Shown here in pieces: positions 5,615 through 5,743 of a DNA stretch of 35,930 nt (within the stretch, counting starts at the first letter, position 1; each line of letters opens with the position of its first letter). Made by a program: the position numbers and the translations under genes. This DNA is from Armatimonadota bacterium (lineage in GTDB: Bacteria > Armatimonadota > Armatimonadia > Armatimonadales > Armatimonadaceae): positions 1 to 35,930 of the forward strand of contig JAPLCP010000050.1 of assembly GCA_026392155.1 (NCBI GenBank), read 5' to 3'. A model generated the notes under the pieces. It was not told the DNA's origin. It worked only from the letters and a program-made list of their open reading frames with translations, and did no database searches.

Positions 5615-5743
5615 GGGTCGGTAGCTCAGTGGTAGAGCAGTGCCCTTTGCTTATCGTGAGAACGATGGTTCATGCCATTTCAGGTGCGACTCCTGAGAGA
5701 AGCTATAAGGCATTGGTCGTGGGTTCGAGTCCCACCCGACCCA
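5615..5743 (+). tRNA. tRNA-Lys (probable UUU anticodon) interrupted by a 57-nt anticodon-loop insertion
   Basis: All arms of a tRNA are present: acceptor GGGTCGG/CCGACCC (5615-5621, 5736-5742), D arm 5624-5638, anticodon stem GTGCC/GGCAT (5640-5644, 5709-5713), five-base variable region and T arm GTGGG-TTCGAGT-CCCAC (5719-5735). No CCA is encoded. Body sequence closely resembles bacterial tRNA-Lys, including the acceptor start and the TTGGTCG variable-loop region. The anticodon loop spans 64 nt (5645-5708) instead of 7. Joining CTTT (5645-5648) to TAA (5706-5708) restores the lysine loop CTTTTAA and defines an insert at 5649-5705. Joining CTTTG to AA would give a glutamine anticodon, but the body does not look like tRNA-Gln. 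Whether it is spliced, repaired or dead is unknown. Confidence 0.75.
5649..5705 (+). other. Structured 57-nt insert within the tRNA anticodon loop
   Basis: The insert folds by eye as GCTT (5649-5652) paired with AAGC (5700-5703), enclosing a hairpin ATCGT-GAGA-ACGAT (5653-5666) with a GNRA loop, a weak ATGG/CCAT hairpin (5665-5678, sharing two bases with the first), and TCAGG/CCTGA (5680-5696) around a 7-nt loop. It resembles a small cloverleaf nested in the anticodon loop. It is far too short for a group I or II intron and does not end in G. No open reading frame of note. Confidence 0.55.

Follow-up and report, generated by a model that had tools for sequence, protein, structure and literature searches.

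Short tRNA-like inserts in the anticodon loops of bacterial and phage tRNA genes suggest a further mode of tRNA splicing

The tRNA introns known so far from bacteria are self-splicing ribozymes. Group I introns sit in the bacterial genes for tRNA-Leu(UAA), tRNA-Ile(CAU) and tRNA-Arg. Such introns are mostly longer than 200 nt, and the usual site of the archaeal and eukaryotic tRNA introns is 37/38 (PMC8450103). Phage T4 and bacteria can also seal breaks in the anticodon loop with a kinase and an ATP-dependent ligase (Pnkp-Rnl, Hen1), and repair of this type acts on toxin damage (PMC4411300). The tRNA introns of the Lak megaphages were called enigmatic, and one of them, located in a tRNA-Thr(UGU), 'may encode a possible tRNA' (Devoto et al., 2019, PMC6784885). 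In the open-access literature searched, we found neither a mechanism for such introns nor a bacterial chromosomal case.

The window analyzed here is a contig of 35,930 nt (JAPLCP010000050.1) from the draft genome of an Armatimonadota bacterium (GCA_026392155.1, hereafter G000). An earlier note on this DNA had described a tRNA-Lys gene with a 57-nt insert in its anticodon loop at 5615-5743, and the insert proved to be real. The Rfam tRNA model RF00005 covers 5615-5743 (+) over its full length with 61.2 bits, against a gathering score of 29, and places the surplus nucleotides inside the anticodon loop. In default mode, ARAGORN called no tRNA anywhere in the window, and the intron mode of the program called 5615-5743 with a 57-nt insert. 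Removal of 5649-5705 restores a standard tRNA-Lys(UUU) with the loop CTTTTAA and the anticodon UUU, just as the note had read it. According to the RF00005 alignment, the 5' exon (5615-5648, +; nt 1-35) ends with ...GTGCC-CTTT and the 3' exon (5706-5743, +; nt 36-73) begins with TAA-GGCAT..., the intron (5649-5705, +) lying between nt 35 and 36. CCA is not encoded after nt 73, and it is likewise missing in 54 of the 56 host tRNA genes checked. The note had considered a sequencing error as a source of the insert; an assembly error is ruled out by three further interrupted genes in the same genome and by an orthologous insert in a sister genome, where the whole gene is 88% identical.

A whole-genome tRNA search of G000 (4.77 Mb, 96.6% complete) returned 60 hits, of which four were overlong. 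Besides tRNA-Lys(UUU), with 57 nt at site 35/36, these were tRNA-Ile(CAU) with 49 nt at 35/36, tRNA-Arg(UCU) with 45 nt at 35/36 and tRNA-Leu(UAA) with 47 nt at 34/35. The insert, which had first appeared to be unique, is thus found in four genes of this genome and, as described below, in viral contigs. The intact tRNA-Lys(UUU) by which the note would have recognized a pseudogene was searched for, and neither it nor an uninterrupted Ile-CAU, Arg-UCU or Leu-UAA gene was among the 60 hits. A tRNA-Thr(GGU) was also not found in the draft, including a check for a longer intron, and no split halves were detected; this is probably an assembly gap. The draft therefore occasionally loses genes, and a gap could hide one intact copy, but hardly four. 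Among 38,103 sampled codons, AAA occurs at 18.9 per 1000, whereas AGA, AUA and UUA belong to the least used. Since AAA is common and its sole gene is interrupted, tRNA-Lys(UUU) must be made. Slow splicing of the Arg, Ile and Leu tRNAs could be tolerated because their codons are rare. Decoding of AAA, AUA, AGA and UUA in this bacterium appears ligation-dependent.

One other genome of the genus (G001) was used for comparison. The earlier note pointed to related genomes as a place to look for the same insert, and G001 indeed has an orthologous Lys insert; the Ile insert is also common to both species. The Arg-UCU and Leu-UAA genes are intact in G001, with the loops CTTCTAA and CTTAAAA. The empty sites read ...CCGCCTTCTAAGCGG for Arg and ...AGACTTAAAATCT for Leu, which fixes the insert boundaries in G000, and the joined exons of G000 agree with these intact genes at 70/73 (Arg) and 79/83 (Leu) positions. 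For the Lys gene, the two species are identical at 71/72 exon positions, compared with 43/57 in the insert and 60/83 in the upstream spacer; the adjoining pyruvate kinase gene has 74% identity. Judged by this comparison, the Lys exons are under strong selection. The contrast between exons and insert, together with the frequent use of AAA, indicates that the interrupted Lys gene is alive and contains an intron. G001 also has divergent uninterrupted Lys-UUU and CAU genes. When 291 genomes of the phylum were searched with a covariance model of the inserts (R1), inserts were found in this genus only; the model also misses the Leu insert, so its silence elsewhere says little about absence. On contig 1 of G001, an array of low-scoring unusual tRNAs (1186125-1189054; L167) is possibly of phage or mobile origin.

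What the inserts have in common is their architecture. In all five genus inserts, with lengths of 45-58 nt, the first 7 nt pair with 7 nt near the insert end, and immediately within this helix a further 5 bp close a loop of 7 nt with the form T-N-C-R-A-N-N, giving 12 bp in total. Read from the sequence, this is the acceptor stem of a tRNA stacked on its T-arm, and the inner RNA of the bacterial inserts has no anticodon arm. In the window, the acceptor-like 5' strand GCTTATC (5649-5655, +) starts at the first intron nucleotide and pairs with the acceptor-like 3' strand GAGAAGC (5697-5703, +), found by the helix/T-loop search, through 6/7 pairs with one A.G mismatch; the corresponding mismatch in G001 is G.A. 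The middle region (5656-5679, +) contains small hairpins in the MFE structure and a GG that is D-loop-like by inspection. The T-arm mimic TCAGG-TGCGACT-CCTGA (5680-5696, +), from the same search, keeps T54, C56, R57 and A58, with G at 55; its stem is identical in the G001 Lys insert, where the loop is TGCAAAT. A 2-nt tail TA (5704-5705, +), corresponding to a discriminator-like base plus one, completes the intron, its boundary being given by the restored 7-nt anticodon loop. In G001 this tail is GA. Tail lengths in the genus are 2 or 4 nt (TA, GA, AA, CAAG and CCGA), and none of the tails contains CCA.

We compared the inserts with dinucleotide shuffles, 40,000 per insert, allowing tails of 0-6 nt. 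A 7+5-bp helix that begins at insert nt 1 and carries a T-loop arose in 1/40,000 shuffles of the window insert and in 0/40,000 for each of the other four genus inserts, so this architecture is no product of chance. The 12-bp helix, beginning at nt 1 and capped by a T-loop, is present in 5/5 genus inserts, with 11/12 pairs formed in the window insert. This insert is the least tRNA-like one owing to its acceptor mismatch, the G at position 55 and an MFE fold that redistributes the helix. Its folding energy alone is mildly unusual (RNAfold z = -1.6, 13/200 shuffles as good), and a minihelix covariance model of the host acceptor stem and T-arm with a short middle region (R2) failed to recognize the inserts, the window insert reaching no significant score, probably owing to a penalty on their longer middle. 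The case for a tRNA-like insert accordingly rests on the shared architecture and the comparative data.

The same nesting is found in phages. Viral contigs were pattern-scanned for two T-loops nested in one tRNA and the matches passed to a structural parser. The matches to the first viral pattern consisted mostly of ordinary tRNAs beside a chance T-loop; only parser-resolved viral cases were counted, and L205, L259 and L321, being tandem or ordinary tRNAs, were removed manually. The resulting set has 60 distinct inserts, including 57 from viral contigs (about 55 viral cases). A minihelix with at least 10/12 pairs is present in 67/108 outer-tRNA frames, where shuffling predicts 0.3. The viral inserts lie mostly at sites 35/36 and 34/35, some at 36/37, and the outer tRNAs retain their anticodon stems and 7-nt loops. 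An exact N73-CCA end was seen in 26/57 viral inserts and an N73-only end, that is, a single-nt tail, in 9/57. The outer gene carries CCA in 20/26 cases with N73-CCA inserts versus 1/9 with single-nt tails (p=0.0009), or in 9/14 versus 1/9 (p=0.029) when the CCA-requiring scan is left out.

Individual cases illustrate the range of inserts. In the Val-UAC gene L314, whose outer identity is supported by similarity, the sequence reads CTT/GTCTTTC...GAAAGGC-ACCA/ACAA, with slashes at the insert ends. L519 contains a tRNA-Gly within a tRNA-Asn, as indicated by the best hits of the inner and outer parts. A 76-nt tRNA lies within tRNA-Arg-UCU in L207/L299, and a 75-nt tRNA lies within tRNA-Lys in L554, again with the outer identity supported by similarity; for L279, similarity did not confirm the outer amino-acid identity. 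Inner tRNAs exist in complete, shortened and minimal form, so that the origin of the intron would be testable. In the viral contigs L647 and L622, a tRNA-Ile(UAU) contains an inner full-length tRNA, whose anticodon loop in L647 reads CUA by inspection, a possible amber suppressor; the inner tRNAs of the two contigs are related without being the same and occupy one and the same site. The 332-kb contig IMGVR_UViG_3300037851_000141 (L329, L342) carries both an interrupted Thr-UGU gene with an AA tail and an interrupted Arg-UCU gene with a TCCA tail. Among cultured phages, the jumbo phage Atu_ph07 of Agrobacterium has an apparently interrupted, unannotated tRNA-Asn(GUU) at 323902-324023 (-) of MF403008.1, and the paper describing this phage lists asparagine among the missing tRNAs.

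Candidate enzymes are encoded in the host. In a cluster conserved in both species, two PF09414 RNA ligases flank a protein with HD and P-loop kinase domains (G000 contig 48, L188 7141-9543; G001 contig 1, L190 6526-8931). The kinase domain of the host cluster matches the kinase-domain structures 4gp7/4jst, which we take to be bacterial Pnkp. RNA ligase genes are also present in relatives without such introns. Among phage contigs of more than 80 kb, a PF09414 RNA ligase was found in 21/26 contigs with nested tRNAs versus 6/23 length-matched controls with ordinary tRNAs (p=1.7e-4, kinship uncorrected). With a curated cut-off, the numbers were 16/26 versus 6/23 (p=0.02), and part of the association may reflect phage phylogeny. 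The host has an RtcB gene, as do most intron-free relatives. The splicing-endonuclease family PF01974 was detected in control genomes and in 0/2 genus genomes. The insert is neither a group I nor a group II element, and its removal would need a route not described for bacteria, as the earlier note had foreseen.

RNase P and RNase Z accept minihelices consisting of acceptor stem and T-arm. Products of RNase P and tRNA 3'-processing have 3'-OH and 5'-phosphate ends, on which ATP-dependent RNA ligases act. Since the insert is itself tRNA-like, its ends resemble sites of RNase P and of tRNA 3'-processing: the intron 5' end is the RNase P position of a tRNA, and the phage 3' end is a mature tRNA end. 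We consider it probable that the intron is a tRNA mimic that is excised by the tRNA end-processing enzymes and whose flanking exons are joined by an ATP-dependent RNA ligase. We infer every enzymatic step from the sequences. In the precursor, outer and inner tRNA would both fold. RNase P would cleave where the inner helix starts, directly behind nt 35 (nt 34 in Leu), which in the window corresponds to 5648/5649. On the 3' side of this helix, an RNase Z-type 3'-processing endonuclease would cleave behind N73 or, if CCA is encoded, behind N73-CCA. The outer halves, with their 3'-OH and 5'-phosphate, would be held together by the rest of the tRNA fold and sealed by the ligase. With the host-genus tails of 2 or 4 nt, RNase Z cutting at N73 would leave 1-3 extra nucleotides, so another cut or trimming would be needed. 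More broadly, we lean towards a further mode of tRNA splicing that is used by phages and was taken up by a bacterial chromosome. In this mode a tRNA or mini-tRNA would serve as the intron and would itself supply the sites for RNase P and for 3'-processing. Ordinary maturation would then provide the cuts, only an RNA ligase would have to be added, and a phage transcript could yield two tRNAs.

The irregular 3' tails of the genus are a poor match to RNase Z, which speaks for a different route: an unknown endonuclease, resembling anticodon nucleases or RNase III, might cut the loop and leave a 2',3'-cyclic phosphate and a 5'-OH, with RtcB joining the exons or the HD-kinase healing and the ligases sealing the ends, so that the tRNA shape would only keep the loop open or position the nuclease. 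The presence of RtcB is consistent with such a route, and the cluster of ligases and HD-kinase suits end healing as well as sealing. The route does not account, however, for inserts that start precisely with the acceptor helix, for phage inserts that finish precisely with N73-CCA or for the use of entire tRNAs as inserts; the absence of PF01974 and the occurrence of RtcB in most relatives free of such introns also count against it. We regard it as unlikely, though a serious competitor. The nuclease with an RtcB-type ligase proposed in the earlier note thus stands as far as the gene is present, whereas the RNase P-type ends would suit the ATP-dependent ligase and not RtcB. The complete, CCA-bearing inner tRNAs of the phages, including L647 with its amber CUA loop by inspection, could instead mean that nesting mainly serves the inner tRNA as a packing or mobility trait of phage tRNA arrays, the outer tRNA perhaps being lost, and that the arrangement was later captured and degenerated in the bacterium. 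That the outer stems and loops are preserved, that the bacterial outer genes are the only copies and that the bacterial inner RNA lacks an anticodon arm make this quite improbable.

A reading of the interrupted genes as dead copies, which the note had also considered, or as unspliced tRNA-like RNAs with another role could point to the divergent uninterrupted Lys-UUU and CAU genes of G001. Against this reading, the Lys exons are conserved while the insert diverges, G000 has no intact paralogue, four essential decoding functions have no other gene there and AAA is a common codon; we think it very improbable. Known bacterial tRNA introns are self-splicing group I introns in the anticodon loop (PMC4090602), and a very small self-splicing or self-cleaving RNA might be expected by analogy. 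The 45-58 nt of the inserts fall far below the known sizes of group I and group II introns, the Rfam scan of the window insert gave no ribozyme or intron family at the gathering score or at E up to 10, its sole weak match being a Y-RNA T-arm (E=0.96), and the common core is a tRNA shape, so that we give a ribozyme hardly any credence.

The proposed excision of a tRNA mimic by tRNA end-processing enzymes would also distinguish these introns from the described systems. They share with group I tRNA introns the anticodon-loop position and some of the same tRNA species, but are far shorter than the roughly 200 nt or more of those introns, which have a conserved catalytic core, and give no Rfam intron match. 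Like the BHB introns of archaea and eukaryotes, they are short, lie in the anticodon loop and are likely removed by protein enzymes; in contrast to them, they occupy sites 34/35, 35/36 or 36/37, and the recognition element would be the tRNA shape, with PF01974 absent from the genus. The class is therefore set apart from both. A gene set comparable to that of the T4 and bacterial repair systems is present, with ligation proposed here for routine splicing instead of toxin damage. Going by the published description, the Lak introns may be the closest match; they are likewise short inserts in phage tRNAs recognized from alignments with and without intron (PMC6784885). Those were reported from one phage group with no mechanism given, whereas the present cases include bacterial chromosomal genes and a minimal acceptor/T-arm form, with insert ends that coincide with tRNA ends (CCA among them), occurrence in many phages and an association with ligases. 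We take the Lak report as the probable first sighting of this intron class, the splicing route being what we infer for it. If this route is correct, tRNA end-processing enzymes act as splicing nucleases, bacterial ATP-dependent RNA ligases have a constructive role, and tRNAs missing from annotations, such as the tRNA-Asn of Atu_ph07, are explained.

YrlA-type bacterial Y RNAs are free-standing Ro60 partners with a tRNA-like module. They resemble the inserts in their T-arm mimic and differ in being free-standing, and Y-RNA-like genes occur elsewhere in G000, on contig 57 (L028, L194), and on contig 8 of G001 (L146), with RF01656 scores of 30-36 bits that fall short of its gathering score (38). 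L028/L146, which in both genomes had been a candidate for a fifth interrupted tRNA, was rejected as a Y-RNA-like tRNA mimic because the anticodon stem is absent, a GGUUAUC motif is present and a Ro60 gene lies nearby. A 129-nt tRNA-shaped RNA is nearly identical in the two species (G000 contig 57; G001 contig 8, L146), and the same region of contig 57 contains a Ro60/TROVE gene (L194 9146-10783).
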